Assembly: GCF_017051705.1 (NCBI RefSeq)
Contig: NZ_JAFIDJ010000001.1
Location: 496,001-560,000, forward strand
DNA: 64,000 nucleotides
Origin: Algoriphagus lutimaris
GTDB lineage: Bacteria > Bacteroidota > Bacteroidia > Cytophagales > Cyclobacteriaceae
Reading direction: 5' to 3'
Shown: positions 7,729-55,412 of the stretch, one piece after another
Layout of the letters: every line of letters starts with the position of its first letter
Position numbering within the stretch: position 1 is the stretch's first letter
Notes under the pieces: model-generated
Database searches by the model: none
Told to the model about the DNA's origin: nothing
What the model saw: only the letters and a program-made list of their open reading frames with translations
Program-made: the position numbers and the translations under genes

Positions 7729-8739
7729 ATGAGTCCTTTAAAAGTAACTCATGTCATTTTATCTGGTGGAACAGGTAGTAGATTATGGCCGCTTTCCAGA
7801 AAGTCCTGTCCAAAACAATATTTGGAGATTTTTGATGGAAAATCATTGTTTGAATTGTGTTTGGAGCGTAACCGCTTTCTCAAGGGAAAAGGGATTGTAG
7901 TAGGTAGTTTGGGAAATTTTGAATTATCCAGAAAGACCTTTTCCAAGATGGGTATTAACCCATACAAGGAAATTGTAGAGGCTTTGCCTAAAAATACTGC
8001 TCCTGCCATTGCATTTGCGGCTTTGTCAAGTCATCCTGACGATATTTTATTAATAACCCCATCAGATCATTTGGTGCAAGATCAAGCCTCTTATGAACGG
8101 GCAGTCGAAAATGCGGTGAGACTCGCTAGCATAGATCTCCTTGTGACTTTTGGTATTACGCCAACTCGTCCTGAGACCGGATATGGTTACATTCAGGTTG
8201 AGGATGGGATAGTTAAAAGATTTAAAGAAAAGCCAAGTATTGAGTCTGCAAGGACTTATTTGGAAATGGGTGATCATTTTTGGAATAGCGGAATGTTCTG
8301 TTTTAAGGCTGGACTCTTTTTGAGAGAACTTGAATTTTTTCAGCCAGATCTTTTCCATCAAATAAAAATAGCTTTTGAAAACTCCAAAGATGGATTTATT
8401 CAAAAATTAGATAATGAATTAATTGATTCATTGAGTGTGGATTATGCTGTGATGGAGCATTCCAAAAAGTTGGTGATGGTAGAAGGAGACTTTAAATGGT
8501 CTGACCTAGGTTCATTTGAAGCACTTAGTGATTATTTGAGTGAAACCCATCAAATCGAGGAAGATGAATATGGAAATGTCTGTATAGGCAAGTCCCGGCA
8601 TGCCAGTTTTCTAGGTGTTTCTAATATGATTTTTGTGGAGACACCAGATGCATTTTTGATTTTGAATAGGTCTGACTGCCAAAAAGTGAAAAACCTATTT
8701 GAACAATTTGAAACTGAAAATCCAAGCTTAGTTAACTGA
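7729..8739 (+). CDS. manC: Mannose-1-phosphate guanylyltransferase
   Basis: Makes GDP-mannose from mannose-1-phosphate and GTP, the first committed step towards GDP-fucose in this operon. The nucleotidyltransferase signature ILSGGTGSRLWPLSRK is at residues 10-25, with TPSDHLV near 108, RFKEKPS near 166 and FWNSGMF near 186. At 336 residues it is the short form, without the C-terminal phosphomannose isomerase domain of bifunctional enzymes. It is the first gene of the operon; the start ATG follows a long AT-rich leader. fcl begins 7 bases after its stop. No phosphomannomutase is encoded nearby, so mannose-1-phosphate must come from elsewhere. Confidence 0.95.
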   Translation: MSPLKVTHVILSGGTGSRLWPLSRKSCPKQYLEIFDGKSLFELCLERNRFLKGKGIVVGSLGNFELSRKTFSKMGINPYKEIVEALPKNTAPAIAFAALSSHPDDILLITPSDHLVQDQASYERAVENAVRLASIDLLVTFGITPTRPETGYGYIQVEDGIVKRFKEKPSIESARTYLEMGDHFWNSGMFCFKAGLFLRELEFFQPDLFHQIKIAFENSKDGFIQKLDNELIDSLSVDYAVMEHSKKLVMVEGDFKWSDLGSFEALSDYLSETHQIEEDEYGNVCIGKSRHASFLGVSNMIFVETPDAFLILNRSDCQKVKNLFEQFETENPSLVN

Positions 8740-8746: not shown

Positions 8747-9706
8747 ATGGATATTTTTAAGAAGAAAATATATGTAGCAGGGCATACAGGAATGGTTGGT
8801 TCTGCTATATGGAGACTTTTAAAAGCCAGAGGGGCAATGAACCTTATTGGAAAGAAGAGTTCGGAGCTTGATTTGAGAGATCAATATGAGGTACGTGAGT
8901 TTTTTGCTGATCAACAGCCTGAAATAGTCATCAATGCAGCAGCCAAAGTAGGAGGGATCCTGGCAAATGATTCCTATCCCTATGAGTTTTTGATGGATAA
9001 TTTAATGATTCAAAATAATATCATTGACAGCTCTTTAAAATCTGGGGTTGAAAGATTTCTATTTCTTGGCAGCTCTTGTGTATATCCAAAAAGAGCAATC
9101 CAACCCATTAAAGAAGAGTATCTATTGACTGGTCCTTTGGAACCAACAAATGAATCTTATGCGATCGCAAAAATAGCCGGAATCAAAGCTTGCGAAGCTA
9201 TTTACTCCAAAATGGGTAAGGGATATAGTTCTATCATGCCTTCCAATCTTTATGGACCCTATGATAATTTTGATCTTAACAGCTCGCATGTTTTGCCTGC
9301 GATGATCAGGAAATTTCACGATTCAAAGATCAATGGAAATCAACCAGTCATGCTTTGGGGGACCGGTAGTCCTTTACGTGAATTTTTGCATGTAGAGGAT
9401 TTGGCTGATGCGGTTATGTTTTTATTGTCAAGGGATGTGAAGTATCCAATGATCAATGTGGGTACAGGGTACGATATAGAAATAAAGAAATTGGCATTGA
9501 TGGTCCAAAGTGTGGTGGGGCATGAAGGTGATATCCTCTGGGATGAAAGTAAGCCGGATGGCACGCCCAGGAAAGTGATGGATGTCAGTAGAATAAACTC
9601 CATGGGATGGGAGCCAAGACTGAATTTACTGGAGGGCATTTCGCAGACCTATAATTGGTTTCAAAAAAATCAAAAGAGTTTAAAAATGCATTCCATTGCA
9701 TTTTAA
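8747..9706 (+). CDS. fcl: GDP-L-fucose synthase
   Basis: Epimerises and reduces GDP-4-keto-6-deoxymannose to GDP-L-fucose with NADPH. The N-terminal Rossmann motif is VAGHTGMVGSAIWRLL, the substrate region is FLFLGSSCVYPKRA, and the catalytic Tyr-Lys pair is in SYAIAKIAG. The 319-residue length fits the family. It lies between manC and gmd, so the order is manC-fcl-gmd, with the last enzyme of the pathway encoded before the dehydratase. Its product is the donor for the GT11 fucosyltransferase at 26738. All key residues are present. Confidence 0.95.
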   Translation: MDIFKKKIYVAGHTGMVGSAIWRLLKARGAMNLIGKKSSELDLRDQYEVREFFADQQPEIVINAAAKVGGILANDSYPYEFLMDNLMIQNNIIDSSLKSGVERFLFLGSSCVYPKRAIQPIKEEYLLTGPLEPTNESYAIAKIAGIKACEAIYSKMGKGYSSIMPSNLYGPYDNFDLNSSHVLPAMIRKFHDSKINGNQPVMLWGTGSPLREFLHVEDLADAVMFLLSRDVKYPMINVGTGYDIEIKKLALMVQSVVGHEGDILWDESKPDGTPRKVMDVSRINSMGWEPRLNLLEGISQTYNWFQKNQKSLKMHSIAF

Positions 9707-9751
9707 AAGTTCACTGTTTAATAATCCTATCAATTTTTAAAAATACTATTT

Positions 9752-10897
9752 ATGAAAGTCGCTTTAATAACTGGAGTAACAGGTCAAGACGGAGCTTATT
9801 TGGCTGAGTTTTTACTGAACAAAGGATATGTGGTACATGGGATTAAAAGAAGGTCCTCTTCATTTAATACTCAAAGAATTGACCATTTATACCAAGATCC
9901 ACATCAGGCGGATGCAAGATTTTTTATGCACTATGGGGATCTCACTGATTCCATGAACTTGACTAAAATCATCAAGGAAACTAATCCGGATGAGATTTAT
10001 AATCTAGGAGCTATGAGTCATGTTAAAGTAAGTTTTGACTCACCGGAATATACTGCAAATGCTGACGGTCTGGGAGTTCTTAGAATTTTAGAGGCGGTCA
10101 GATTATTAGGAATGGAGAGTAAGACCAGGGTATATCAGGCCAGTACTTCTGAACTCTATGGTTTGGTCCAAGAAATTCCACAGACAGAAAGAACTCCTTT
10201 TTATCCAAGGTCTCCCTATGCAGTGGCCAAGTTATATGGATTCTGGATCGTGAAGAATTATAGAGAGGCCTATGACATGTTTGCGTGTAATGGGATTCTT
10301 TTTAATCACGAATCTCCATTGAGAGGAGAAACATTCGTGACCAGGAAGATCACCAGAGCAGTTTCGAGGATAGGAATGGGGATGGAGAAAGTACTCTATC
10401 TGGGCAACCTGGATGCCAAAAGAGATTGGGGACATGCCAAAGATTATGTAGAAGCAATGTGGCTAATGTTACAGGCAGATAAGCCGGAGGATTATGTCGT
10501 AGCTACCGGAGTTACCACCAGTGTTCGTCAGTTTTTGAGTATGGCATTCTCCAAAATAGGATTCAAACTCGATTTTGCCGGAGTTGGTGTGGGGGAGATG
10601 GGTATTCTTTCTTCCATAGATTATGAGGTAGCCTATGAAAAGTTAAGAAAAACGAAAAAGGAGCTTCCTAAGCTTGGTGAGATTTTAGTGAAAGTGGATC
10701 CAGAGTATTTCAGACCTACCGAAGTAGAATTATTAATAGGAAATCCGGATAAAGCATTAAGGAAACTGGGGTGGAAACCTAAATACAATTTAGAAATGCT
10801 TGTAGAGGATATGATGCATGCAGATTTGCAAGAATTGAATAAAGATATCTGCTTAGTGAATGGAGGCTTTGAGGTAGTATCTCATTTGGAATATTGA
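9752..10897 (+). CDS. gmd: GDP-mannose 4,6-dehydratase
   Basis: Converts GDP-mannose to GDP-4-keto-6-deoxymannose, the substrate of Fcl. It has the NAD(P)-binding [17 protein letters not shown] at the N-terminus, QASTSELYG near residue 130, [12 protein letters not shown] with the Tyr-Lys pair, and [19 protein letters not shown]. It ends in the expected [13 protein letters not shown] and LGWKP segments. At 381 residues it is full length. It follows fcl by 45 bases and precedes the NRPS/PKS gene by 48 bases. Together with manC and fcl it gives a complete route from mannose-1-phosphate to GDP-L-fucose. Confidence 0.96.
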
Positions 10898-10945
10898 GCT
10901 TCATTCTCCAATAATAATCAGTTTTTTAACTAAACGTCTCTTGAG

Positions 10946-13900
10946 ATGGAAAACTTTTCAACTTCAACTACACCAAATATCTTTGATCTTTTAAAAAGGA
11001 GATTCGAGGAGTTTAGAAAGTACGATGCACTCGTTCATAATGACGAATTCATCACCTATGGAAAATTGGAGATCCTGGTAGATTTAGTTGCTCAAAGAAT
11101 CAGAAATGAAGCTCCGGAAGAAAAACTAATAGCCATCTCCTGTTCTAGATCTGTAAAAACGATCATTAACATGTTGGGAGTTTTGGCTGCTGGAAAGGCA
11201 TATCTGCCCTTGGATTTTGATCAGCCAACAGAAAGACTTGCTAAAATTGTTTCAGAAACCAATGTTCGTTTTGGATTGCAAGGCCTGGATTCGGAGGATT
11301 TTGCTTCACTTTCAATCAAGACCATTGAGGGGAAATATAGAGATTCTACTTTAACTCCTAATTATACCTCTGATCTTGCCTATGTCTTATTTACTTCTGG
11401 TACAACAGGGATGCCGAAGGGGATTGAGGTATGTAGTCCAAGTTTGGTCAATTTAGTGAACTGGCAGCTAGTAAACTCTCAGTCTGGACCTGGTTTTAAG
11501 ACTTTGCATTTTGCCAGGTTGACCTTTGATATTTCATTTCAGGAGATTTTTACCACCTTGGTAAGTGGTGGTACTTTGTACATTCAGGATAACGAGATTC
11601 TAAAAGACCCTTATCAATTATTACAGTTCATCCAGAATAAAGGAATAAATAGGTTGTTTGTACCTTTTATTGCCCTTCAAGGATTAGCGAATGCAGCCGT
11701 TTCTTACAAAATTTTCCCAGACTCTATTCGAGAGATAATGACCTGTGGAGAACAGCTAAAAGTAAGCAGTACTATACGGGAGTTTTTCCAAGAGTTACGA
11801 AGCTGCAGATTTTATAACCAGTATGGTCCTACTGAAACTACCATTATCGTTTCGCAGAAATATTTAGAAGACGAACCATCACAATGGGAAGATCTTCCAA
11901 GTATTGGTTGGCCAATTTCCAACGTAGAAATGTTGATTGTAAGCCCTGAAGGGAAATCCATCACCACTATGAATAAAGTTGGTGAAATCTACATCACTGG
12001 AGATTGTTTAGCTCGAGGCTATTACCAAAATGAGGAGTTGACCAATAAGTTATTTGTGGAATTGAATCTGGATGGTTCCGGAATCAAACGATACTATAAA
12101 TCAGGTGACTTGGCGGAATGGAATGTTGATGGAAGTATAAAGTTCTTGGGGCGCGTCGATGATCAGGTTAAAATTAATGGACATCGGGTAGAACTAGGTG
12201 AAATTGAAGTAAATGCCTCTAAAATTAATGGAATTGAAGAGAATGCCGTGGTGATAGGCCATTTCAAAGATGGACAAAACTATGTAGTACTTTTCTACAA
12301 GACTACCGGAGTGGATCTAAAAATAGAGGAGATCAAAAAGGAATTGAGGAAATCTATTCCTGAATACATGATTCCGTACAAATTCATCAGAATTGAAGAG
12401 TTTCCTCGAAGTGGAAGTGGGAAAATTGATAGAAAAGCGTTGAAGAATTCCTTGTCCGAAAAAAAGGACCAGAAGGTTTCCCAAACGAAGGTTGATACTA
12501 ACTACAAGGAGATAATAACCGGGATATGGAAAGATCTCCTTCAGGAAACGGAGTTTAACTTGCATAGTAATTTCTTCCAATTGGGAGGAAGCTCGATTTT
12601 AGCACAAAAACTTTCATTGGCGATTAATGATCAGCTTAAAACTGTATTTCCTGTAGCTTTAATTTATCAGAACCCTACTTTAGGCAAGCAAATTTCTTTC
12701 CTGAAAGGAGAAAAAAAAGGAGGGTTGGATAGTCCTGAAAAGCTAGCCAAAAAAGCTGCTTCCGACAATAGAGATGTGGCAGTCATAGCGATGTCCGGAA
12801 GATTTCCTGGGGCAAATGATACTGCCGGTTTTTGGGAAATGATCAAAAATAAAAAAGAGGGGATCACCCACTTTACACTGGAGGAAATAGATCCTTTAGT
12901 GAGACATGAGGCAGAAGAATCCAATTACATCAAATCAAGAGGGGTGGTAGCCGATTATGATAAGTTTGACTCTAAATTTTTTGGAATGAATCCAAAATTG
13001 GCTGAAATCATGGATCCCCAACAACGTAAGTTTTTAGAGATTTCTCATGAGGTGTTGGAAAAAGCAGGATGGATTGCTAATCGACCGGATTTTAGAATAG
13101 GTGTATTTGCTGGAACAAATAATAACACCTATTACAACAGAAATGTAGTTTTTGATCATGAGGCAACGGAAATCTTTGGGCCAAATCAGGTCATGTCCCT
13201 TAATGAAAAAGATTATGTGGCAAGTAGAGTAGCCTTCCAGCTTAACTTAACTGGACCTGCTGTCAGTGTTTATACCGCGTGTTCTACCTCGCTATTGGCA
13301 GTAGCCCATGCAGTGATGAGTATTAGGTCTGGGCAATGTACTGCAGCTATTGCTGGGGGAAGTTCCATTACATTTCCTGCAAATAGTGGACAACGGTATC
13401 AAGAGGGAGCCATTTTTAGTATAGATGGTCATTGCAAACCATTTGATTCAGAAGCTACTGGAACCATGTTTTGTGATGGAGCAGGAGCAGTTCTACTAAA
13501 AGACTATGAACAAGCTGTAAAAGATGGGGATAAGATCTATGCAGTTATTAAAGGAATAGGGATCAGTAATGATGGATTTGAAAAAGCAAGTTTCACTTCT
13601 CCAAGTGTGAGAGGAGAAGCCTCTGCCATCAGAGATGCTATTTTGGATGCCCAAATTAAGCCAGAGCAAATTGGTTATGTGGAGACGCATGGTACCGCTA
13701 CCCCTATAGGTGATCCCATTGAGGTAGAAGGATTAAAGTTGGCTTTTGGAGAAGGGGTATCAAGCACATGCGCCATTGGATCCGTAAAAAGTAATGTGGG
13801 ACATTTGACAGCCGCTGCAGGTATTGCAGGGTTCATTAAGACAGTGTATGCGCTACATGAACGAACCCTTCCCGCTTCTTTGGGTTTTGTGAAACCCAAT

Positions 13901-16900
13901 CCAGAGATAAAATTTGAAGGATCACCTTTTTATGTAAATAATGAAACCAAAAGCTGGGCTAGTGATACTAAGAGAATTGCTGGCGTAAGTTCCTTTGGCT
14001 TTGGTGGAACGAATGTTCATGTGATTCTTGAGGAAGCAGATCCAGAACAAAAAGTCATTGCCCCCAAAGAGAATGAAGAACCAAATTTGTTTGTTTTTTC
14101 AGCAAAATCTGAGTCAAGTGTAAAAGATTACGCGAAAAAAATGCACGCCTATGTGCAGGAAAATCCTGATTTGGATCTTCAAAACCTTCATGCAAATCTT
14201 GCCAATAGGTATTTGAATTATGGGGTGAACCTTCATTTCTCTGCCTCTAAAAGAGCCGAATTGATTAAGAATCTGGAGGAGATAGAAAAAGGAATGATCC
14301 CGGTTTTATATAAAAAAGGAGAATTTAAAACTCCAGTATTTCTGATTCCTGGTCAAGGCTCACAATATGTGGGGATGGGAAAGGATTTTTATGGGTCCAA
14401 TCAAGTTTTCAAAGATGCTTTTGATCAATGTTGTAAGCTATTTGATTCTTATTTGGACAGTTCTTTAAAAGAAGAAATATTCAATGGGGCTCAAGAGAAC
14501 TTATCAAAAACCTATTTAACTCAACCAGCCATCTTTACAGTTTCCTTTGCCTTGGCTAAGATGCTTGTCAGTAAAGGGTTTGATCCTGTTGCGCTTTGTG
14601 GGCATAGTATAGGAGAATACGTTGCGGCACATTTAGCTGGTATATTCAGTTTGGAAGATGCCGTTAAAGTCGTTGCCTACAGAGGAAAGCTGATTTACGA
14701 TTTGCCAACAGGTCAAATGTTATCGGTTCGATCACAGTTGGATATTGTTAAAGAAATTCTTCCTGACGAGTTGTCCATCGCAGCTCATAATGCACCTAAT
14801 TTATGTGTTGTCTCTGGAGAGCATCAAGTAATTGAAGAGTTTCAAAAAGTACTGGAAGAGTATGGGATTGCCAATCAGGTATTAAAAACAAGTCATGCAT
14901 TCCATTCTAAAATGATGGATGGGGCTTTGGATGATTTTTCAAAAGTTTTGGAAAGTGTTCGTCTGAACATTCCTCAAATTCCAATAAAATCCACTCAAAC
15001 TGGAGCCTGGTTAACAGATGCTCAAGCCACTTCCATCGAATACTGGGTAGATCATATCCGAAATGCAGTATTGTTTAATGACAGTGCTAAAGCTTTACTT
15101 GAAGAATTAGAGGATTCTTATTTTATCGAAGTAGGACCTGGAAATGTACTATCAAGCCTAATGCAGCAACAGCCTGAAGCAAAGGATAGGGCAATTGTTC
15201 ATACACTTTCCAGAAAAAATGAAGAGGATGAATTTACCTATTTGATGAATCAAATCGGAAGGTTGATTTCTTTCGGAGCTACAATAGATCAGTTTAAACT
15301 CAATGGGATAGGGGAATTTTCATTTTTGGATATCCCTACCTATTCTTTTGAACCGAAGCTTTGCTGGACTCAAAAAGGAGCTTTATTAAATCCGGCATTT
15401 TCGAAGAGCTTGGCTAACGCGACTCGTTTGAATAGTCTTCAGGAAAACAAACAATTGGAAGAAGCCATTCTTGAAGAGGAGGAAGTAGAGCAAGATAATT
15501 TTGAGAAAATCAAAGAAATGCTGGAGTCAGCTTCCGGCGTTAAGATCCAGCGTAAGGATATTGGTTCCTCATTTTTTGAATTGGGACTTGATTCTTTAGT
15601 GCTTACTCAATTTACTTTTTCTATCAAAAAGGAGTTTGGAGTAACAATTACGTTTAGGCAAATCAATGATGATTTAAATACACCAGGTGCATTATTATCT
15701 TTTATCCAATCCAAATCTCCAAAGCCAGTTAATAAACCTAAGCAAGAAGAGGTTAAAAAGAAGGAGCCTGTGGCTGAGCATAAGGAAGAATTGGTAGGGG
15801 TTGATGTGATTCAAATGATTCAACAACAATTGAATGCTATTCAAACACAAATTTCCCAACTACAGACCAATGGTGGAGGTGTAAAAAATAGTATCAGTAA
15901 GTATGAAAAACCGAAAGTAATAAGTAAAACCGTACCCGCTGAAGGAAGCTCCTCGCAAATGGAGGAAGAAATTGATCCTTCAAACCTTAGCAAAGAGGCT
16001 CAGGAGTTTTTTGGTGAATTGAAAGAGAAGTATCAAAAGAGAACCTCGAAAAGTAAAGATTATCACGATTCTCACAATGGACGAGAGGGTTTGGAAGTGG
16101 AAAAAGAACAGGTATGGAGTACTAAGCGATTGAATTATCCAATTATTTCAAAGTTTTCAGACGGGTCAAAATTGATTGATTTAGATGGGAATGAATATTT
16201 GGATTGGCATTTCAGCTATGGGTCAAAATTGTTTGGATACAATGCTGATTTTATCAAAAAAGCATTGAAAACTCAGATAAGTGATGGCTTGGAGTTTGGA
16301 ACCCATTTAGATCAGGAGAAAGAGGTAATCAGGAAATTTAAAAGGTTAACCCAAGTGAAGGAAGCCTATTTATTCGATCACTTCTCTGAAGCTTTGTTAA
16401 AAGCCATTACAGGCTGTCAATCCATTAATACTAAAAAACTAATTGCAGTTATCTCAAGAAAATGTAAAACACAAGGTAGTGACTCTCATTTGCCTTGTGG
16501 TTCATTAGGTAATACTGAATGCCTGGACTTCCTTAAAGAACATTTTCATAATGACTTACTCGTCTTGACCGGAAGTTGGGATGAATCTTTGGAAATCCTT
16601 CAAGATCGATCTTCTGAAATCGGGACTGTGTTATATGATGTACGTTGTGATGATTTGAATACTGAAGAACTGGGAGTTTTCTTAAATAACTTAAGAAAGC
16701 AAACTCTTGAGGAGGGTATGTTTTTGGTATTGAATGAGGTGTTGTCGGGTTTTAATACCTATTCCAATGGCGTAAGTCACTTCATGACTTCAAAACCAGA
16801 TGTAGTGGTTTTTGGAAACTTAATTGGAGAAGGTTTGCATTTGGGGATTTTAGGAGATTATTCAGGAATAACCTCCTCCCATACAAAAAGCCAGTTTGGA

Positions 16901-17413
16901 ATGCTTCAAGACTTGGGAGAATATACAGGCGATGCATTTGTCTTAGCTGCTACCGTAGCATTGCTGAAGGAGATTGAGGAAAGAGGCCCAGTTTTTCAAG
17001 ATGAATTATCTAAAAAGACAGATGATTTTGTGGCTCGGGTAAATGAGCTTTTTGAAAAATATAATAGCCCCTATGAGGCAGCTAATTTTCGCTCTATCTG
17101 GAGAATTAAGGAGAAAGAACACACTCCTTTGACCCCATTGCTTTTCGTTTTGTTGAGGTATGAAGGGGTTCACATGATGAGGGGAATTCCTTGTTATTTT
17201 ACTGAAAAGCATACTCGAATAGACATCGAACAAACTTTAGTGAAGCTTGAAAAAGCTTTGGCACTGATGATTGAAAATGATTTGGTGAGAGGAGATCTTC
17301 CTGATTTAGAAGAGCTGGTGATGGATACTCATTATCCTCCATTTCCAGGCGCAAAAATCGGGTTAGACAGTGAAGGGAACCCAATGTGGGTTTCACCAAA
17401 AGAGAATAATTAA
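10946..17413 (+). CDS. Hybrid NRPS/PKS: A-PCP-KS-AT-ACP-(degenerate) aminotransferase
   Basis: A 2155-residue starter and elongation megasynthase. The adenylation domain (about 1-500) has FTSGTTGMPKG, NQYGPTETT and GSGKIDRK. PCP carries LGGSS with the carrier Ser at 550. The ketosynthase has Cys779 (TACSTS), His915 and His953. The acyltransferase has GHSIGEY (Ser1221) and HAFH at 1317-1320, the malonyl-CoA signature. ACP carries LGLDSL (Ser1550). A Gln-rich linker precedes a class III aminotransferase-like domain (about 1720-2120) ending in the usual FPGAKIG...GNPMW tail. In that domain the PLP lysine is Asn1958 (FGNLIGEG) and the usual DEV is NEV (Asn1930), so it should be inactive. No condensation, reductase or dehydratase domain is present. 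It probably loads an amino acid and adds one unreduced malonyl unit, passing it to the protein at 17436. Confidence 0.93.
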   Translation: MENFSTSTTPNIFDLLKRRFEEFRKYDALVHNDEFITYGKLEILVDLVAQRIRNEAPEEKLIAISCSRSVKTIINMLGVLAAGKAYLPLDFDQPTERLAKIVSETNVRFGLQGLDSEDFASLSIKTIEGKYRDSTLTPNYTSDLAYVLFTSGTTGMPKGIEVCSPSLVNLVNWQLVNSQSGPGFKTLHFARLTFDISFQEIFTTLVSGGTLYIQDNEILKDPYQLLQFIQNKGINRLFVPFIALQGLANAAVSYKIFPDSIREIMTCGEQLKVSSTIREFFQELRSCRFYNQYGPTETTIIVSQKYLEDEPSQWEDLPSIGWPISNVEMLIVSPEGKSITTMNKVGEIYITGDCLARGYYQNEELTNKLFVELNLDGSGIKRYYKSGDLAEWNVDGSIKFLGRVDDQVKINGHRVELGEIEVNASKINGIEENAVVIGHFKDGQNYVVLFYKTTGVDLKIEEIKKELRKSIPEYMIPYKFIRIEEFPRSGSGKIDRKALKNSLSEKKDQKVSQTKVDTNYKEIITGIWKDLLQETEFNLHSNFFQLGGSSILAQKLSLAINDQLKTVFPVALIYQNPTLGKQISFLKGEKKGGLDSPEKLAKKAASDNRDVAVIAMSGRFPGANDTAGFWEMIKNKKEGITHFTLEEIDPLVRHEAEESNYIKSRGVVADYDKFDSKFFGMNPKLAEIMDPQQRKFLEISHEVLEKAGWIANRPDFRIGVFAGTNNNTYYNRNVVFDHEATEIFGPNQVMSLNEKDYVASRVAFQLNLTGPAVSVYTACSTSLLAVAHAVMSIRSGQCTAAIAGGSSITFPANSGQRYQEGAIFSIDGHCKPFDSEATGTMFCDGAGAVLLKDYEQAVKDGDKIYAVIKGIGISNDGFEKASFTSPSVRGEASAIRDAILDAQIKPEQIGYVETHGTATPIGDPIEVEGLKLAFGEGVSSTCAIGSVKSNVGHLTAAAGIAGFIKTVYALHERTLPASLGFVKPNPEIKFEGSPFYVNNETKSWASDTKRIAGVSSFGFGGTNVHVILEEADPEQKVIAPKENEEPNLFVFSAKSESSVKDYAKKMHAYVQENPDLDLQNLHANLANRYLNYGVNLHFSASKRAELIKNLEEIEKGMIPVLYKKGEFKTPVFLIPGQGSQYVGMGKDFYGSNQVFKDAFDQCCKLFDSYLDSSLKEEIFNGAQENLSKTYLTQPAIFTVSFALAKMLVSKGFDPVALCGHSIGEYVAAHLAGIFSLEDAVKVVAYRGKLIYDLPTGQMLSVRSQLDIVKEILPDELSIAAHNAPNLCVVSGEHQVIEEFQKVLEEYGIANQVLKTSHAFHSKMMDGALDDFSKVLESVRLNIPQIPIKSTQTGAWLTDAQATSIEYWVDHIRNAVLFNDSAKALLEELEDSYFIEVGPGNVLSSLMQQQPEAKDRAIVHTLSRKNEEDEFTYLMNQIGRLISFGATIDQFKLNGIGEFSFLDIPTYSFEPKLCWTQKGALLNPAFSKSLANATRLNSLQENKQLEEAILEEEEVEQDNFEKIKEMLESASGVKIQRKDIGSSFFELGLDSLVLTQFTFSIKKEFGVTITFRQINDDLNTPGALLSFIQSKSPKPVNKPKQEEVKKKEPVAEHKEELVGVDVIQMIQQQLNAIQTQISQLQTNGGGVKNSISKYEKPKVISKTVPAEGSSSQMEEEIDPSNLSKEAQEFFGELKEKYQKRTSKSKDYHDSHNGREGLEVEKEQVWSTKRLNYPIISKFSDGSKLIDLDGNEYLDWHFSYGSKLFGYNADFIKKALKTQISDGLEFGTHLDQEKEVIRKFKRLTQVKEAYLFDHFSEALLKAITGCQSINTKKLIAVISRKCKTQGSDSHLPCGSLGNTECLDFLKEHFHNDLLVLTGSWDESLEILQDRSSEIGTVLYDVRCDDLNTEELGVFLNNLRKQTLEEGMFLVLNEVLSGFNTYSNGVSHFMTSKPDVVVFGNLIGEGLHLGILGDYSGITSSHTKSQFGMLQDLGEYTGDAFVLAATVALLKEIEERGPVFQDELSKKTDDFVARVNELFEKYNSPYEAANFRSIWRIKEKEHTPLTPLLFVLLRYEGVHMMRGIPCYFTEKHTRIDIEQTLVKLEKALALMIENDLVRGDLPDLEELVMDTHYPPFPGAKIGLDSEGNPMWVSPKENN

Positions 17414-17435
17414 TTTTTATTGATCTGATTTTTTT

Positions 17436-20400
17436 ATGAATAACTTATTAGAACAGACATTGAATCAATCCATGCTAACCAAAGCAACTATGGAAATTGA
17501 GAAGGTGATTAAGACGACACCCTCTCAAACAGAAATTTGGTTGGCTTGTAAAATGGGAGGAAAGGAAGCCAATATGGCCTACAATGAATCTGTCTCTCTT
17601 CAATTGAAAGGAAACCTTTCTGTTGATAGTTTGAAGGAAGCATTTTTAGAGCTGATTCGTAGACATGATGGGATGAGGACAATCATAAGTCCTAATGGGA
17701 AGAATCTGTTAGTTTTTTCTTCCTACGAATTGCCTATTAGGTTCCGGGATATCAGTCATTTATCTGAGGAAGAGCAGCAGTGTTTTTTTAGAAAGCATAC
17801 AAAAGAGATCGGTAATTACCATTTTAATTTGAGCCAGGGACCATTGTATGTGATGGAGCTGATTAAAATTAATGAGTTGCTCCATGAAATTTCTTTTACA
17901 GGTCATCACATCATATTCGATGGCTGGTCTATTGGATTGATGTTGGAGGAATTAAGTGAATTATATTCTAAAAGTGTTCAAAGTCTGGAATTGGATCTCC
18001 CTGATCCAGATTTATTGGGAGAATACTCAGCAGAACTTATAAATAGAAGTAGAAAGTTCGAACATAAGGAAACCAAAAAGTATTGGAAAAATTACCTGTC
18101 AAATCCTTTACCTGATTTTTCATTACCTATTTCGAAGGATAGACCTATTCATCGAACCTATGACTCAGATGTTATCGGATTTCCTTTACCAAAAGAAGTT
18201 GTAAAGCAAATAAAGAAGGCTTCCTCGGAGGAGAAAGTTAGTTTGAACTTAGTAATACTCTCCATATTTGAGATCTTTTTAAGCAGATGGTCAGGTGAAG
18301 AGGAAGTAGTAGTAGGGATGCCTGTATCCGGACAGCTTGGTCTAAACAGACCTCGTCTGATTGGACATTGTGTCCATTTATTGCCACTGAGAAGTGAGGT
18401 AAATATGGCCTTGCCTTTTTCAGAGTATTTGCAACAAAGGAAGGCGAATTATAATCAAGCATTGGATCATCAATTCTTGAGTTTTGGGAATATGATCCAG
18501 GATCTTCCGATCAAAAGAGATTCGTCAAAAGTCCCTTTAATTCCGATTACTTTTAATATTGATCTGGACTTGGATGCCAAAGTGGATTTTGTTGGATTGG
18601 ACCATAAACTTTCCTTTAATCCGAAAGCCTATGCAAATTTTGAAATTATACTAAACCTCTATGGGAATTCGGATGAATTCATTTTCGAGTGGACCTATAA
18701 TAAAAGTTTGTTTGACCGAGATTACATCAATCATGCAGGAAATGATTTTGTCAGTTACCTTAAGGCTTTTACTAAAGATAGAAAACTTCTAATTCAGGAG
18801 ATTATCGATGAGATAGAAGTCAACTCTCCAAAAGAAAAAGAGCCTTCTATTGACTTGCAGGTTTCTGAATTGGAATTCATTCCTTTTGGAAAGTACTTTT
18901 TTGATTCGGTAAGTCAATATCAAAATAAAGTGGCATTGACGGTGAATCGCAAACAATTCACTTACCAGGAATTGGGGATAAAGGTGAAACATTTGGCAGG
19001 GTACCTCCATAACAAAGGAGTAAAACCTGGAGATATTATTGGTATTCATTTAGAAAGAGATGAAAATTTAATTGCTACTGTTTTAGCAGTAATCAGTGTT
19101 GGAGCGGGGATTCTTCCAATTGATACTGATTTCCCTGAGGAACGGGTAAAATTCATGCTCGATGATGCCGATGTGAAGTATTTCATTTCGAGTAATGATT
19201 CAGTGAATTGGGGTGACTTGAAACCCAAAAAACTACAAATTCCAATAAGTCAGATCCTTGATCAATACGAGCTTTTTACGGTTCAAAACTTTAATCCTGT
19301 AAATCCAGCTCTGATTATTTATACTTCAGGTTCTACGGGTAAACCCAAAGGAGTAGAATTATCTCATCAAAATTTATTTTACTTCACCCAGCAGGTAATT
19401 GAACAGCCAGGACTTAGTAGTGAAGATAGAGTGTTGGGGTTGACGTCGATTAGTTTTGACATGGCATGGCTTGAAGTGGTCCTTCCTCTTACATTTGGGG
19501 CTAGTCTGTATTTACTCGGAAAGTATGAAAGAAAGGATCAGCGAGAAATTTTTAATGCGCTGAAAGATTATCGTATTACCAAATTGTACATCACCCCTTC
19601 CCATTTAAAGTCCCTTATTCAATACATGGGTGAGCCAAAATTGGAAGGACTTACCATCATTTCTGCTGGAGAACCACTATCAAGGATGTTGGCTGATTCT
19701 TTACTCAAAGTTGCTGACTCGGTTTATAATATTTATGGTCCCTCAGAAACTACCGTATATGCCACCATTAAGAAAATTAATTCTTCTGAAGAGGAAATTA
19801 CAATTGGGAAACCCGTCAAAAATTCCTGTGTCATCTTGGTGGATGAGCAAGGTAAATTGATCACTTTCCCCGGTAAAATGGGAGAGATTTGGATTGGAGG
19901 AACTTGCGTTGGAAACGGATATTTGAATCGCCCAGAATTAACCAAAGAACGGTTTGTTCCTAGCCCATTTAAAGGATACGAGGGGAAATTTTATAAATCT
20001 GGTGATTTAGGTCTTTGGAATGAAGAAGGGGATTTGTTATGCAAAGGAAGGATAGATCACCAAGTGAAGATAAGAGGTCAAAGATTGGAATTGGGTGAGA
20101 TCGAGAGTGAACTTACCAAGGATCCTTTGATCAAAAATGCAGTGGTTATTAAAGTACTCGATGGCAATGGAGAAGGAATGCTGCGAGCTCATGTTTCTTT
20201 TGTAGATGGCCAAATGCCTGATTCTAAATTCTCCAATTGGGTAGACATCACGAAAGGTCAGCTTTCCAAAAAACTTGCTTCTTATATGATTCCGAGTGAA
20301 TTCGTTCAACAGGAAAGTTTTGAGTTGAATTCGAATGGTAAAATCGATCGTAAGTTATTGGAAAGATATAGGCCAACTTTAGTATTTAACGAGGCCACTG

Positions 20401-21464
20401 ATCAAGAAAAAGAGATCAAGGGTTCTTCCTCATCAATTCTAGCAGTTAAAAAAGCCTGGGAACAAGTTTTAAAAAGGGAATTGGAACAAACAAATGAGGA
20501 TTTTTTCCAAATAGGAGGGCATTCTCTTCTAGCGGTAGATTTATTATCCAAGCTTGAAAACCACTTTGAAATAAACCTTCCACTTTCCACGCTATTTGAG
20601 TTTCCTACGATTGAGATGCTTGCATCTCATATTGAACATTGTAAAAAAGAAGAGAACAAAGGACAGTCCAAATGTTTGGTAAAAATTAAGGAAGGCGATC
20701 CTAATAAAGTTTTACTATTTATTCATGGGGTGGGTTTGAATCCTTTGGAAATCAATACGTTGGTGGAAAATATGGAGGAGGATCAGACGATTTGGGGACT
20801 ACAATCGCCGTCAATTTTAGATGCTTCCTTAGCACCGCTTAGCACCATTGAACAGATCGCTCAAGTGTATATTGAACAGATCAGAATAGCAGGTCTTAAA
20901 GGTCCTTATCATTTAATGGGAAATTCTTTGGGAGGCTTAATTGCTTTTGAAATGGCCAAGCAATTTATAAAGATGGGAGATAAGGTGCAGTTTTTAGGAA
21001 TGATTGATACGATTGCTTTTGATACTGATAATACCCCAAAAGGATTTTTCAGCAAGGTGTCCAAACTTTTAAAAAGGTTATGGTATGAAATCAAATTCAT
21101 AATCAGAGATCCAGGTTTTTACCTGAGTTATAGAAAGAAATATCTATTGGAAAAACGGGACAATTGGAGAGCGAAATTTCAGAAGAACACCAATTTATTT
21201 AATAGGATCAAGGAGATTGAACATGTCAACAAGGAAGCTTGGAAAAATTATGTTCATGAGCCGGTTGACGTAAACATTACATTATTTCTTGCAAACCGAA
21301 GGACATTTTATGTGGAGGATTTCAAAACCTTTGGTTGGACTCCATTTGCAAAAGAGATAGAGGTAATCAGGATGCCAGGTGAGCATGCAAATATGCTAAA
21401 ACCACCTCACGGTGCAGAATTTACAAAGACATTACAGAATATTTTGAACTCCTATACTAAGTAA
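17436..21464 (+). CDS. NRPS termination module: C-A-PCP-TE
   Basis: A 1342-residue NRPS that condenses the product of the preceding hybrid protein with a second amino acid and releases it. The condensation domain (about 30-460) has HHIIFDG at 157-163. The adenylation domain (about 480-980) has YTSGSTGKPKG near 627, IYGPSETT near 764 and NGKIDRK near 967; FDMAWLE keeps the Asp expected for alpha-amino acids. PCP has IGGHSL with Ser1030. The C-terminal type I thioesterase (about 1080-1342) has GNSLGG (Ser1164) and a late His in GEHANML. All essential residues are intact. It begins 22 bases after the hybrid gene and is followed 3 bases later by the PPTase gene. I could not assign the amino acid substrate from sequence by eye. 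Confidence 0.94.
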   Translation: MNNLLEQTLNQSMLTKATMEIEKVIKTTPSQTEIWLACKMGGKEANMAYNESVSLQLKGNLSVDSLKEAFLELIRRHDGMRTIISPNGKNLLVFSSYELPIRFRDISHLSEEEQQCFFRKHTKEIGNYHFNLSQGPLYVMELIKINELLHEISFTGHHIIFDGWSIGLMLEELSELYSKSVQSLELDLPDPDLLGEYSAELINRSRKFEHKETKKYWKNYLSNPLPDFSLPISKDRPIHRTYDSDVIGFPLPKEVVKQIKKASSEEKVSLNLVILSIFEIFLSRWSGEEEVVVGMPVSGQLGLNRPRLIGHCVHLLPLRSEVNMALPFSEYLQQRKANYNQALDHQFLSFGNMIQDLPIKRDSSKVPLIPITFNIDLDLDAKVDFVGLDHKLSFNPKAYANFEIILNLYGNSDEFIFEWTYNKSLFDRDYINHAGNDFVSYLKAFTKDRKLLIQEIIDEIEVNSPKEKEPSIDLQVSELEFIPFGKYFFDSVSQYQNKVALTVNRKQFTYQELGIKVKHLAGYLHNKGVKPGDIIGIHLERDENLIATVLAVISVGAGILPIDTDFPEERVKFMLDDADVKYFISSNDSVNWGDLKPKKLQIPISQILDQYELFTVQNFNPVNPALIIYTSGSTGKPKGVELSHQNLFYFTQQVIEQPGLSSEDRVLGLTSISFDMAWLEVVLPLTFGASLYLLGKYERKDQREIFNALKDYRITKLYITPSHLKSLIQYMGEPKLEGLTIISAGEPLSRMLADSLLKVADSVYNIYGPSETTVYATIKKINSSEEEITIGKPVKNSCVILVDEQGKLITFPGKMGEIWIGGTCVGNGYLNRPELTKERFVPSPFKGYEGKFYKSGDLGLWNEEGDLLCKGRIDHQVKIRGQRLELGEIESELTKDPLIKNAVVIKVLDGNGEGMLRAHVSFVDGQMPDSKFSNWVDITKGQLSKKLASYMIPSEFVQQESFELNSNGKIDRKLLERYRPTLVFNEATDQEKEIKGSSSSILAVKKAWEQVLKRELEQTNEDFFQIGGHSLLAVDLLSKLENHFEINLPLSTLFEFPTIEMLASHIEHCKKEENKGQSKCLVKIKEGDPNKVLLFIHGVGLNPLEINTLVENMEEDQTIWGLQSPSILDASLAPLSTIEQIAQVYIEQIRIAGLKGPYHLMGNSLGGLIAFEMAKQFIKMGDKVQFLGMIDTIAFDTDNTPKGFFSKVSKLLKRLWYEIKFIIRDPGFYLSYRKKYLLEKRDNWRAKFQKNTNLFNRIKEIEHVNKEAWKNYVHEPVDVNITLFLANRRTFYVEDFKTFGWTPFAKEIEVIRMPGEHANMLKPPHGAEFTKTLQNILNSYTK

Positions 21465-21467
21465 GCT

Positions 21468-22196
21468 ATGATTATGGGTAAAGTTTTCTGTGATCAAATT
21501 AGGGTGATTGAATGGAGAAAATCATGTGATTTTAACTTGGATAATCATTTTGATATATGGAGAATATATATTCCCGATCATTTAGATATGTTAGAGGAAT
21601 TAAGTGATACGCTATCAGAGGAAGAGTTAAATAGATTTAATAATTATAAGGATACTGAGGATAGAAACAGACATTTATTGGCTCGTTATTTTGTTAGAAA
21701 AATAAGTTCTGATTATTTAAAAGTTGATCCTAATTCATTTGAGATCGATTATTTAGAAAATAATAAACCATACTTTAAATACTATCCTCATTTCAATTTT
21801 AATATCTCTCATTCGGGAGATTACATTGTTATTGGTTTTGCGAATAGGTGGTCTGTAGGTGTAGATATTGAGTTTATGAATTCACAATTAGACTTATACG
21901 ATTTGATTATTAATTGTATGTCTAATTATGAAATAAGCATGATTTTAAACTCTGAGGCACCCAGAGCTGTGTTTTTTAAACACTGGACTAGAAAAGAGTC
22001 TTTGTTGAAAGGAGTTGGTTTAGGACTGACTGATAGAATTAAAGATGTAGCCTGTGTAGATGGGTTAAATTTAATTCCATCTGACCTTTCAAGTTTTGCC
22101 TCTGCCTGGAAGATATGGAGTTTTGAAATGGGAGAGTATTGTGTAAGCATAGCCCATGATTCTGCGGTAAGAATCATTAGATTCTATCAATTATAA
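21468..22196 (+). CDS. 4'-phosphopantetheinyl transferase (Sfp type)
   Basis: Transfers phosphopantetheine from CoA to the carrier-protein serines, here most likely the three carrier domains encoded just upstream. Motifs: the N-terminal RHLLARYFVRKI, FNISHSGDYIVIGF, VGVDIE with the Mg-binding acidic residues, and HWTRKESLLKGVGLGL, the W-KE-K signature of Sfp-like enzymes. At 242 residues it is the long Sfp type rather than AcpS. Its start is 3 bases after the NRPS stop, so it is translated as part of the same unit. A second ATG two codons later (21474) is an equally possible start. The dedicated PPTase supports a functional assembly line. Confidence 0.93.
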   Translation: MIMGKVFCDQIRVIEWRKSCDFNLDNHFDIWRIYIPDHLDMLEELSDTLSEEELNRFNNYKDTEDRNRHLLARYFVRKISSDYLKVDPNSFEIDYLENNKPYFKYYPHFNFNISHSGDYIVIGFANRWSVGVDIEFMNSQLDLYDLIINCMSNYEISMILNSEAPRAVFFKHWTRKESLLKGVGLGLTDRIKDVACVDGLNLIPSDLSSFASAWKIWSFEMGEYCVSIAHDSAVRIIRFYQL

Positions 22197-22217
22197 TAGA
22201 TATATAACTATAATTTT

Positions 22218-22997
22218 ATGAAATATTTTTTTAAATACATGCTTGTGTTATTTCTTTTAGCATCTTGTTCTAAAAGAAATATCACCTACTTCTCCAACTT
22301 AGAATTACAAAAGGGTGAATTATACACCACTACCAATGCAATAGATCCTATTAGGATTCAAAAAGGAGATGAATTAGAAATTAAGGTAACCACCTTGGAT
22401 CCCGAATCTAATCTTCTTTTTAATTATGGTGTGATTTCAAATGGAGATGAAGTACTAGGTTCAAGAACTACTTATACCCAGAGTAGATATAAAGTATCTG
22501 AAAATGGAGAAATTGATTTTCCCATTGTCGGAAAAATAGAACTGCTGGGTTTGACTAGAGATGAGGCTAGAGAAAAAATAGCTAGTTCTTTAGAAAAGTT
22601 GGTCACTAACCCGCGTGTAGAATTGACCATTACCAACTTTAAAATTACGGTCTTAGGAGAGGTTAATCAACCTAATACATTTACCATCACTACTGATAAC
22701 ATCACTGTCATTGAAGCTTTGGGCTTGGCAGGAGATATGACAGTATATGGTAAAAGAGAGAATGTTTTAGTGATCAGAGAACGTGGTGGAGAGAAAATGC
22801 TTTATCGGATTGATATGAATGATAAAGAGTTGTTGGGATCTGCCAACTTCTTTCTAAAACAAAACGATGTGCTTTACATAGAAGCAGATAAAAAGAAGCT
22901 GATTCAAGCGGAAATGAACCCAACTACCATTGCGGTCATGACCATATTATCTTCTGTTGCTGTGGCACTAATATTTAACTATCAAAATATTTTTTAA
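22218..22997 (+). CDS. Polysaccharide export lipoprotein (Wza/BexD-like)
   Basis: Outer-membrane-linked component of the Wzx/Wzy export route. A lipoprotein signal ends in LFLLASCSKRN with the acylated Cys near residue 17. The poly-export domain (about 40-120) contains RIQKGDELEIKV, and a SLBB-like part contains VRTV-type strand patterns (FKITVLGEVNQPNTFTI). A hydrophobic C-terminal stretch (TTIAVMTILSSVAVALIF) could cross the membrane. At 259 residues it is shorter than E. coli Wza but normal for Bacteroidota. It starts 21 bases after the PPTase gene and lies 10 bases before the matching Wzc-type kinase, the usual gene pair. Confidence 0.9.
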   Translation: MKYFFKYMLVLFLLASCSKRNITYFSNLELQKGELYTTTNAIDPIRIQKGDELEIKVTTLDPESNLLFNYGVISNGDEVLGSRTTYTQSRYKVSENGEIDFPIVGKIELLGLTRDEAREKIASSLEKLVTNPRVELTITNFKITVLGEVNQPNTFTITTDNITVIEALGLAGDMTVYGKRENVLVIRERGGEKMLYRIDMNDKELLGSANFFLKQNDVLYIEADKKKLIQAEMNPTTIAVMTILSSVAVALIFNYQNIF

Positions 22998-23007
22998 ATA
23001 ACTGTTT

Positions 23008-25323
23008 ATGAAAGCTTCAGATGTTTTATTGGATGGAATTGTTGACACAGAGGTATTTGAGTCATCACATATCAAGAAAAGCTTGCTATACTATTTAAGG
23101 TATTGGAAACTCTTTTTGATCTCCTTTGTGGTGGTTTTTTCCTTGGTGTTTGCCTATATCTATTTTGCTATCCCTTTGTTTCAGGTGAATAGCGTGATTA
23201 TGCTTAAAGACGAATCTAAGGGTTCTGTGTTTATGGAAAATCCAGTGTTAAGTGAATTAAGCGACTTTAAGTCGTATCAAATTACTGATAACGAGATTGA
23301 TGTTCTTCAATCCTCGGATTTAATGAGACAGGCGATTAAAGATTTGAATTTTAATTATTTAACCTACCATAAAAATTTCCTTGGTAAGCTAAATACAGTA
23401 TCAAACAATGAGCTTCCATTCATTATCGAAGTGATCAATATTGATGAGGAATATTTATTGGATAAGGAATTTGAGGTCTTGGGGATTGAGAATAATTACG
23501 TCATCTATTCCAATGGCGACACGGTCAATGAAATTAAGTTTGGGGAAACATTTCAAAATGAATTTGCCATCCTGAAAATTCACAGGAATGAAGAAGTAAA
23601 GGAGTTTAATGGCTATCCACTAATTGTGAATTTGTTTAATAACGCACAATTGGCAAGTATGATGTCAAGCAGTCTTAAGGTGGAGCCAAAGGATAAAAAC
23701 AGTAGTATTCTATATGTTTCCTTGAAAACGGAGTTTCCCGACTTGGGAGTACAGGTGGTCAATGAGTTAGTTAATACTTATAATGAAAATGCGGTAGCTG
23801 AGAAAAAGGAAGTTGCTTTAAATTCCTTGGAGTTTTTGGACAATCAATTATCGATTCTGTCGGCGGAATTGAGTGGGATGCAATCCAATATTGAAACCTT
23901 CAAGTACAGCAAAGATGTCGTTGATGTAGAAAATGATTCTAAGTTTTATCAACAAAATGCGCTTGATAATTCAAAGCAATTATCGATCAACCGAAGTCAG
24001 TTAGAAATACTTAGAAATCTTAAAAGTGAGGTATTATCGGGTACACAACAAAGTATTACCCTTGGCCCTTTGTCGAATGATGACCCTGCCTTATTGACAA
24101 TGATTCAGGATTTTAACACTGAAGTAGATAAGCTTGAACGCTTGAAAGGGGCTATTCTACCGGAAAATCCAGTATATGTAAATACCATGGAGCGCATTTC
24201 TAGTTTTAGAAATAAGATTGTTGCGCATTTGGAGGATAGAATAGATGCGCTTGAAATTTCTACCAGAAACCTGGAAACGGCATCTGCAACCTACAATGAT
24301 AAATACCATTCAGGTCCTATGATTCAAAGGCAATATGAAGCCCTTACAAGGGATTTGGACTTTAAGAAAGCTCATTATATCAATTTAATAGAGAAGCGGG
24401 AAGAGACTTCTCTTTACTTGGCCTCTGTCTCTTCAACGCATTCCAAAACTATAGAAAAGGCATATTTCAGTCCTATTCCGGTAAGTCCAAATAAGCCGAT
24501 TTTAGGCTTGATTGGGTTGTTTATCGCATTTGCAGCACCTTTTTCATTTTTATATGTGAAAAGGACTTTTCAGGGGAAATTGGAAGATAGAAGTCAGATT
24601 ATTGTTCCTTCTTCTAGTAGCGTTTTGGGAGAGTTGTCACTGGTTGACGCAAAACCAAATGGGCCAATAATTGATCATAATTCCAAAACACCAATTGCTG
24701 AACAATTGAGGTACGTTAGGACAAGTTATTGTCTAAATGATTTTGGTAAAGAGTCTAAGGTAACTCTAGTTACCAGTACTGTATCAGGTGAAGGGAAGAC
24801 ATTTTTTGCCTTGAACTTTGCCAAGTCTATGAGCATGATTGGGAAGAAGACTGCCGTATTGTTTTATGACTTGAGAAAGCCTTTGGAGTATGCCAATTTG
24901 TTTGATAAGGGATCAATTGGAATCTCAGAATTCATCAATGACAAGAATATTTCATTTAAGAAGTTTTTGGACTCTGGACTGGATTACCAAGGAGTCACCT
25001 TGTTTCAAACAGGCAAATTACCAAATAACCCTGCTGAAATCCTGCTCAGCCCTAGGAATCAAGAGCTGATCAATGAAATGAGAAAGCATTTTGAATTCAT
25101 TGTGCTCGATAGTGCTCCGGTGGGCCAGGTTTCCGATTCCTTCTCATTAATTCCTTTGGTAGACGCTACTATTTATATGATGAGATACAATTGGACTACC
25201 AAAAATGATATCGAATTCTTCCACCAACTAAAAGCAGAAGCGAAAATTAATAATCCAATGTTGGTGCTTAATGGAAGTAGAGCAGGACAAGGGTATTCTT
25301 ATGGTAATTACGAATACAATTAA
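23008..25323 (+). CDS. Polysaccharide co-polymerase with tyrosine autokinase (Wzc-like)
   Basis: Inner-membrane regulator of polymer length and export. The 771 residues contain an N-terminal Wzz-like region with a membrane helix (FLISFVVVFSLVFAYIYF), a long periplasmic coiled-coil part (about 260-470), a second helix (PILGLIGLFIAFAAPFSFLY), and a C-terminal BY-kinase with VSGEGKTF and FIVLDSAPVG. The Walker A' region reads LFYDLRKP, so the first Asp of the usual DxD is replaced. The tail has only a small tyrosine cluster (GYSYGNYEYN), poorer than the kinase at the left edge. It follows the Wza-like gene and slightly precedes the flippase gene. Confidence 0.93.
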   Translation: MKASDVLLDGIVDTEVFESSHIKKSLLYYLRYWKLFLISFVVVFSLVFAYIYFAIPLFQVNSVIMLKDESKGSVFMENPVLSELSDFKSYQITDNEIDVLQSSDLMRQAIKDLNFNYLTYHKNFLGKLNTVSNNELPFIIEVINIDEEYLLDKEFEVLGIENNYVIYSNGDTVNEIKFGETFQNEFAILKIHRNEEVKEFNGYPLIVNLFNNAQLASMMSSSLKVEPKDKNSSILYVSLKTEFPDLGVQVVNELVNTYNENAVAEKKEVALNSLEFLDNQLSILSAELSGMQSNIETFKYSKDVVDVENDSKFYQQNALDNSKQLSINRSQLEILRNLKSEVLSGTQQSITLGPLSNDDPALLTMIQDFNTEVDKLERLKGAILPENPVYVNTMERISSFRNKIVAHLEDRIDALEISTRNLETASATYNDKYHSGPMIQRQYEALTRDLDFKKAHYINLIEKREETSLYLASVSSTHSKTIEKAYFSPIPVSPNKPILGLIGLFIAFAAPFSFLYVKRTFQGKLEDRSQIIVPSSSSVLGELSLVDAKPNGPIIDHNSKTPIAEQLRYVRTSYCLNDFGKESKVTLVTSTVSGEGKTFFALNFAKSMSMIGKKTAVLFYDLRKPLEYANLFDKGSIGISEFINDKNISFKKFLDSGLDYQGVTLFQTGKLPNNPAEILLSPRNQELINEMRKHFEFIVLDSAPVGQVSDSFSLIPLVDATIYMMRYNWTTKNDIEFFHQLKAEAKINNPMLVLNGSRAGQGYSYGNYEYN

Positions 25324-25333
25324 ATTTTTAATA

Positions 25334-38929: not shown

Positions 38930-38962
38930 ATTAGGCTGATTAGATTTTGTTTTTATCGTCAA

Positions 38963-55390: not shown

Positions 55391-55412
55391 AGTTTAGATT
55401 ATTGATAATTGG

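Follow-up and report, generated by a model that had tools for sequence, protein, structure and literature searches.

Why does a peptide-polyketide assembly line stand among the genes for a fucose-containing polysaccharide? The question is raised by a stretch of 64,000 nucleotides from Algoriphagus lutimaris (the window; contig positions 496001-560000, part of a 4.7 Mb genome), in which a hybrid nonribosomal peptide synthetase-polyketide synthase (NRPS-PKS) gene, an NRPS gene and a phosphopantetheinyl transferase (PPTase) gene lie between gmd and a Wza-like gene. Genome comparison gives good support to the view that this line and the genes for GDP-fucose, Wza/Wzc/Wzx, a Wzy-like protein and glycosyltransferases are inherited as one unit. 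On whether the NRPS-PKS genes are also a working part of the polysaccharide system, with a glycan-bound product, we find the balance even.

Gene order and co-occurrence in Algoriphagus

From 7729 to 34898, the plus strand carries manC, fcl, gmd, the hybrid NRPS-PKS gene, the NRPS gene and the PPTase gene, followed by genes for Wza, Wzc, Wzx, a GT11 glycosyltransferase, a GT4-type glycosyltransferase, a Wzy-like protein and four more GT4-type glycosyltransferases. The original prediction had placed the three assembly-line genes in line between gmd and the Wza-like gene, with gaps of 48, 22, 3 and 21 bases and no visible terminator. All of this was borne out: the open reading frames are in place and all on the plus strand, the gap lengths are correct, and none of the 19 terminator-like sites in 9000-26000 falls in the four gaps. 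The continuation of the operon via Wzc, Wzx, GT11, Wzy-like and GT4-type genes to 34898 had not been noted. As for a separate promoter and terminator around 10946-22196, the gaps thus hold no terminator-like site and a single weak sigma-70-like site, at the gmd-hybrid gap; the sigma-70-type scan returned 49 sites against 52 expected by chance. A scan of 6900-41000 for the consensus of the Bacteroidota promoter motif gave two sites, at 7336 upstream of manC and at 33547 inside a glycosyltransferase gene, and none before the hybrid gene.

The same gene order, which the original prediction had proposed to seek in relatives, was found in three of them (G018, G024 and G014), with gaps of 48/22/3/21, 46/43/1/11 and 47/33/7/18 bases, and is therefore neither a chance product nor an assembly artefact. 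Among 73 genomes of the genus, the NRPS-PKS line, the glycosyltransferase gene GTb (30160-31515) and the Wzy-like gene are each present in nine, the same nine (G000, which is the window's genome, G001, G014, G018, G024, G059, G108, G116 and G117), and none occurs in the other 64; one such pair would match by independent drawing with a chance of about 1e-11. A genome was counted as a carrier on a full-length match to the aminotransferase-line profile. Matches at 1e-50 occurred in 35 of the 73, of which 26 matched only through a stand-alone enzyme of 430-456 aa (HemL-type by length and similarity) and were excluded. Gene order was read in all nine carriers, with contig breaks interrupting it in G001 and G117; the PPTase gene is missing between NRPS and Wza in G108, and G059 carries its fcl-gmd part separately, along with an NRPS remnant of 194 residues.

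On a HemL tree of 36 genomes (five of the nine carriers and 31 others; the name was checked on one of the 40 tree sequences, and the HemL of the window's genome passes TIGR00713), the carriers are scattered. Four changes are needed, at least three of them forced by well-supported branches, so the NRPS-PKS line appears to travel with the glycan genes, gained or lost together with them. The divergence of the hybrid gene tracks that of seven operon genes, with r 0.91-0.98 in comparisons of 7-8 genomes, a pattern that simple vertical descent could also produce. Of the predicted combined NRPS-PKS and polysaccharide system, it is the evolutionary unit that stands, on the shared nine genomes, the patchy marker tree, the correlated divergence and a similar embedding elsewhere. 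Carriage by plasmids was considered and set aside: there were matches in 564 plasmid records at E 1e-100, all below 60% identity among the matches listed, and no close plasmid relative.

The assembly line proteins

The hybrid protein (10946-17413, plus strand; 2155 aa) contains, by Pfam and motifs, AMP-binding, PP-binding, ketoacyl-synthase, acyltransferase, PP-binding and class III aminotransferase domains. These correspond to adenylation (A, about 10994-12445), peptidyl carrier (PCP, 12497-12700), ketosynthase (KS, 12770-14197), acyltransferase (AT, 14336-15256), acyl carrier (ACP, 15503-15706) and aminotransferase-like (16043-17290) regions. The second protein (17436-21464, plus strand; 1342 aa) comprises Condensation (C, 17499-18800), AMP-binding (A, 18897-20363), PP-binding (PCP, 20445-20633) and Thioesterase (TE, 20703-21461) domains, with HHIIFD, FFQIGGHSL and GNSLG motifs. 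The Sfp-type 4'-phosphopantetheinyl transferase (21468-22196, plus strand) matches PF01648 and PF22624 over their cut-offs (ACPS superfamily), the best NCBIfam model being HetI, under its cut-off. The KS cysteine and both histidines, the AT serine, the carrier serines, the HHxxxD motif of the C domain and the TE serine are all present. With these domains, their active-site motifs and a PPTase, the line has the make-up of a hybrid NRPS-PKS.

The AT domain carries a HAFH motif, which we take to mark the malonyl type. A domain search found no reductive domain in the line, and the expected chain is therefore amino acid 1, one malonyl unit and amino acid 2. The specificity code of the first A domain is DIQIMCQII in the window and is conserved (DVQVMAQV in many relatives), and that of the second is DMLSIAIVY. 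Many second A domains outside the genus look glycine-like by their code, while that of the window does not; we claim no substrate for either domain.

Measured against G018, dN/dS is 0.036 for KS, 0.053 for A, 0.059 for C and 0.072 for TE, similar to the glycan genes, and by these ratios the NRPS-PKS genes are under strong purifying selection. A strict motif search missed the KS of G059, G108 and one hybrid of G116 (G116a), but decay of these domains was rejected after alignment, which placed the cysteine and both histidines as expected. Two further motifs escaped the same search, that of the A domain in the second G059 protein and the carrier motif in G108 and G001; in G108 the latter reads FFLSGGHSL. 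The hybrids of G014, G116 (operon copy) and G117 have two LGLDSL motifs, a tandem ACP duplication, and all belong to lines lacking the lysine described next.

The aminotransferase-like domain

The domain at 16043-17290, not remarked upon in the original prediction, keeps the class III aminotransferase fold and adjoins the ACP, and it lacks the lysine that binds pyridoxal phosphate (PLP), with Asn at residue 1958 (codon 16817). The aspartate facing the pyridine nitrogen is also absent, with Asn at residue 1930 (codon 16733). The PLP lysine is missing from seven of the nine operon copies and intact in G024 and G059, while 77 of 80 related loci keep it. The trees, made with the same quick method as the HemL tree, place its loss in at least three independent events.

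G116 holds a further hybrid gene on contig C1 (L158-L159), with the PLP lysine intact and no NRPS partner, in addition to its lysine-less operon copy. The 40 kb around this orphan contain no homologue of the window's polysaccharide genes.

The pairing in other lineages

A similar arrangement occurs in the family of Luteibacter. In Luteibacter itself, the line is followed on the same strand by genes for GT2, a polysaccharide deacetylase, Wzy_C and GT4, with Bac_transf upstream, and Dyella shares the gene order around the line. A match at 1e-80 occurs in 55 of the family's 117 genomes. In 40 the identity is 72-100%; the other 15 (46-58%) were dropped as other lines before the distance to Bac_transf was tested. 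Five of the 40 have Bac_transf on another contig. In 34 of the remaining 35 the gene lies no more than 25 kb away, in 33 of them on the same strand, whereas chance would give 0.59 of 40; G144 departs by distance (198 kb) and G217 by strand. The layout of the second protein, C-A-PCP-C-PCP in Luteibacter and C-A-PCP-C-A-PCP in Dyella, ends in a carrier domain and includes no thioesterase, so the chain must be handed to something. In the Lysobacter protein, a TE-like stretch precedes the last carrier domain, as judged by motif and BLAST only. The aminotransferase lysine is kept wherever it was read, that is, in six of ten loci (the motif pattern gave no match in three of the others and a false one in the fourth) and also in L069, L071 and L073. 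The polysaccharide cluster of L140 (Luteibacter) that houses the line also has a gene for a PaaK-like CoA ligase (3101-4456, minus strand; under the models' cut-offs).

The same two-gene cassette is common in Bacteroidota. Bac_transf lies within 30 kb of it in 13 of 30 genomes, compared with 1.36 expected, and in 11 of 26, compared with 1.17, when Algoriphagus is left out. Within 15 kb and outside the genus, the count is two of 23 against 0.57 expected, so much of this signal reflects neighbourhood and not contact. These co-localisation tests count genomes as independent and include relatives (five Pedobacter, many relatives of Luteibacter), which makes their P values too small. The cassette is the last element of a one-strand Wza-Wzc-transferase-Wzx-glycosyltransferase run in Larkinella terrae and L. 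punicea and the first element of such a run in Mucilaginibacter, the gene labels in both cases coming from profiles built from the window's proteins. In Pedobacter, a polysaccharide locus is found at a distance of some 15-30 kb on the opposite strand, which says little. In the Mucilaginibacter loci L155-L157, the polysaccharide locus beside the cassette holds an extra NRPS-type gene (A-PCP-TE by BLAST, 886 aa).

The polysaccharide genes and flanking features

All genes of the run are on the plus strand. The GDP-fucose part consists of a ManC-like mannose-1-phosphate guanylyltransferase (7729-8739; PF00483, 144 bits), an NAD-dependent epimerase named Fcl-like GDP-fucose synthase from its neighbours (8747-9706; PF01370, 208 bits) and Gmd, GDP-mannose 4,6-dehydratase (9752-10897; TIGR01472, 582 bits, cut-off 415). 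Export is represented by a Wza-like Poly_export/SLBB protein (22218-22997; PF02563, 61 bits, cut-off 28), a Wzc-like chain-length determinant/tyrosine kinase (23008-25323; Wzc-type kinase model of NCBIfam at E 5e-39 and chain-length model at E 7e-20, both under their cut-offs; three transmembrane-like segments) and a Wzx-like flippase (25271-26728, with a probable start at about 25334 by comparison with G018; PF01943, 53 bits, cut-off 28.2; 11 transmembrane-like segments). A GT11 glycosyltransferase of the fucosyltransferase family (26738-27655; PF01531, 99 bits) and the GT4-type GTa (27652-28860; PF00534/PF13692) precede the Wzy-like membrane protein, a putative polymerase (28857-30173; 10 transmembrane-like segments, no Pfam family). 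The operon closes with the GT4-like GTb, used above as the operon marker (PF13439, under cut-off), and the GT4-type GTc (31526-32680), GTd (32687-33730) and GTe (33735-34898), all three with PF00534. GTa is 67% identical to its G018 counterpart, compared with 92-98% for the other operon proteins; this resembles an allele swap, which might change the sugar structure.

Past a minus-strand gene for a secreted beta-helix/Ig-repeat protein with a type IX secretion sorting tail (34895-38962; PF13229, PF17957, PF18962), the plus-strand interval 39717-41157 encodes a WecG/TagA/CpsF glycosyltransferase (39717-40484; PF03808, 166 bits) and an initiating undecaprenyl-phosphate sugar transferase (40432-41157; PF02397, 209 bits). 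With Wza, Wzc and its kinase domain, Wzx and this initiating transferase, the locus has these four parts of a Wzx/Wzy-dependent capsule or exopolysaccharide system, and the Wzy-like protein is a candidate for the polymerase.

The beta-helix protein is a constant neighbour, with a homologue in the operon region of all nine carriers, and a second large secreted beta-helix protein is encoded at 2783-5326 (minus strand). At 1e-60, this family occurs in 11 of the 73 genomes, namely the nine carriers, G062 and G066; these large proteins possibly act on the polymer. The gene at 2783-5326 is apparently truncated, encoding 847 aa where its G018 counterpart has 2188 aa, and its whole-genome match holds one stop. 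Upstream of the operon, in a very AT-rich stretch, an open reading frame of 168 aa (6452-6958, plus strand) is 98.8% identical in G018, was not found in the other operon regions fetched and matches DUF3364 at sub-threshold level only; it is perhaps a regulator. Further along, a haem uptake cluster at 54329-61491 (minus strand) encodes HmuY, a TonB receptor, HemS, an ABC ATPase, a FecCD permease and a periplasmic binding protein. The same genome has a second NRPS region on contig C1 at about 1.097-1.116 Mb (L166-L167), with C-A-PCP-TE and C-A-PCP genes next to ornithine cyclodeaminase-like, acyl-CoA dehydrogenase and AMP-ligase genes.

A proposed glycan-bound product and its alternatives

We propose the following route. 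The first A domain would load an amino acid and KS-AT-ACP would add one malonyl unit, the beta-ketone of which would stay in place because the aminotransferase domain has presumably lost the ability to bind PLP as an aldimine. The second module would add another amino acid, and the short acyl-peptide would then be transferred to the lipid-linked glycan at the cytoplasmic face of the membrane, prior to flipping by Wzx, yielding a fucose-containing polymer with a peptide-polyketide decoration. Since the operon shows no dedicated acyltransferase, the TE domain, or an enzyme encoded elsewhere, would have to perform the hand-over, which is the weakest step; covalent attachment to the polymer is our inference. 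More broadly, the data suggest that a tailor-made chemical group is attached to the polymer or released along with it.

The main competitor is a free metabolite under shared control, that is, a released peptide-polyketide (a metal binder, signal or defence compound) that is not bound to the glycan but is of use when the glycan is made, held for instance in the slime layer, which we regard as a serious possibility at somewhat less than even strength. The TE of the Algoriphagus line looks intact, and a line of the same layout in Pedobacter heparinus (C6XWU5; A-CP-KS-AT-CP-PLP1), likely of the same cassette family as the Bacteroidota loci, to judge by layout only, is listed as NRPS-PKS with no mention of a polysaccharide context in the passages of PMC3870968 that we draw on. 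Three observations tell against such a free product and for a glycan-bound one. The line is linked to one particular glycan gene set in nine of nine genomes despite its patchy distribution. A scan for transmembrane segments in 7729-34898 found the Wzx-like and Wzy-like proteins to be the only multi-spanning membrane proteins besides the Wzc anchors, so no separate exporter for a free metabolite is seen, Wzx and Wza being the only exporters recognised. The lines of Luteibacter and Dyella lack a terminal thioesterase. A glycan-bound product also has a precedent in Flavobacterium psychrophilum, described below.

Several points weigh against a glycan-bound product. The Algoriphagus line ends in a TE with a serine motif, and a terminal TE usually releases a free acid or ring. 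The operon shows no acyltransferase and no amino-sugar gene. A weak promoter-like site at 10886-10915 (9 of 12) overlaps the gmd-hybrid gap, and the HemL tree represents one gene, a quick method and five of the nine carriers. Within the 73 genomes, every cassette found was accompanied by the operon, the one exception being the extra orphan hybrid of G116, which stands away from that genome's operon. Movement of the NRPS cassette without capsule genes, raised in the original prediction, is therefore not seen within the genus beyond this orphan; elsewhere in Bacteroidota it does occur. In G045, from another family of the order, a comparison of 60 kb found no homologue of the window's capsule genes around the cassette, the contig of which has neither Wza nor Bac_transf, and nine of the 30 cassette genomes have no Bac_transf on that contig. 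These stand-alone cassettes, like the orphan hybrid, speak for a free metabolite. The polysaccharide-linked cassettes read outside the genus retain the aminotransferase lysine, so polysaccharide linkage does not in general go with its loss. We nevertheless do not rank the free metabolite first, because of the identical nine carriers, the patchy tree and the Bac_transf linkage in the Luteibacter family.

A narrower alternative concerns the chemistry: the aminotransferase-like domain may still act in an unusual way, for example with pyridoxamine phosphate and no aldimine, to give a beta-amine as in MycA-type lines (mycosubtilin; 6kfm/6kfu). Those lines too are PKS/NRPS hybrids in which a class III aminotransferase domain with this fold comes after an ACP, but the present line starts with an A domain that loads an amino acid, and its aminotransferase-like domain lacks both the PLP lysine and the pyridine-nitrogen aspartate. 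In the window and G018, an SGSEA-type loop has gone as well as these residues, and the replacements at the lost sites differ by lineage (N, A/T, E/N), which fits loss of function better than new chemistry; we consider continued activity unlikely. Least probable, and disfavoured, is a cassette that landed in a variable polysaccharide region and was carried along with no functional link: polysaccharide loci are recombination-prone and GTa looks swapped, but about 11 kb have been kept open under strong purifying selection, the cassette is in the operon of all nine carriers (allowing for the contig breaks), and the pairing exceeds expectation in other lineages.

Returning to the glycan-bound product, a bolder and more tentative extension is a class of surface polymers, so far undescribed, in Bacteroidota and the Luteibacter family, in which the Wzx/Wzy repeat unit carries a locus-encoded NRPS-PKS product. 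In Algoriphagus, this product would have been switched repeatedly from beta-amine to beta-ketone by loss of the aminotransferase, the domain being kept as a structural part.

Relation to known systems and implications

The premise that nothing but sugar, transferase and export genes is normally found in capsule loci must be qualified, as exceptions are known. The WcbR/RkpA type I PKS genes stand inside capsular polysaccharide biosynthesis and export clusters (PMC3908369). They resemble the present case, by description only, in having a type I PKS gene within a capsule cluster, and differ in being proteobacterial and in that the passages of that source used here mention no NRPS modules. The wfp genes of the Flavobacterium psychrophilum O-polysaccharide locus, as described in the part of PMC6519341 used here, are predicted to make the locus's own acyl group (3,5-dihydroxyhexanoyl), carried as an N-acyl on an amino sugar. 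This is likewise a Bacteroidota polysaccharide locus making its own acyl group, but it uses type II fatty acid-like enzymes and a PglD-type acyltransferase, whereas the window has NRPS-PKS enzymes and no such acyltransferase was seen. In the literature searched by title and start of abstract, with few subscription papers, we found no NRPS/PKS in a capsule, exopolysaccharide or O-antigen locus, nor any such system in the Algoriphagus NRPS literature, both being weak evidence of absence. Acyl-making genes in polysaccharide loci are thus already known; within that same scope, an NRPS-PKS line fixed in Wzx/Wzy loci appears to be new.

Assembly-line chemistry and polysaccharide export usually form separate fields of study, and here they appear to be inherited as one. 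A catalytic domain that has apparently lost its function several times, yet is retained under selection, offers a natural series (lysine intact in G024 and G059, lost in seven relatives) for testing the role of a silent domain in an assembly line. If the product is indeed glycan-bound, the chemistry of slime or capsule polymers extends to peptide-polyketide substituents so far unknown in glycans, some NRPS-PKS clusters now classed as orphan-metabolite clusters would be glycan-tailoring genes, and the beta-ketone of the Algoriphagus product could bind metal in the matrix or react with amines there.

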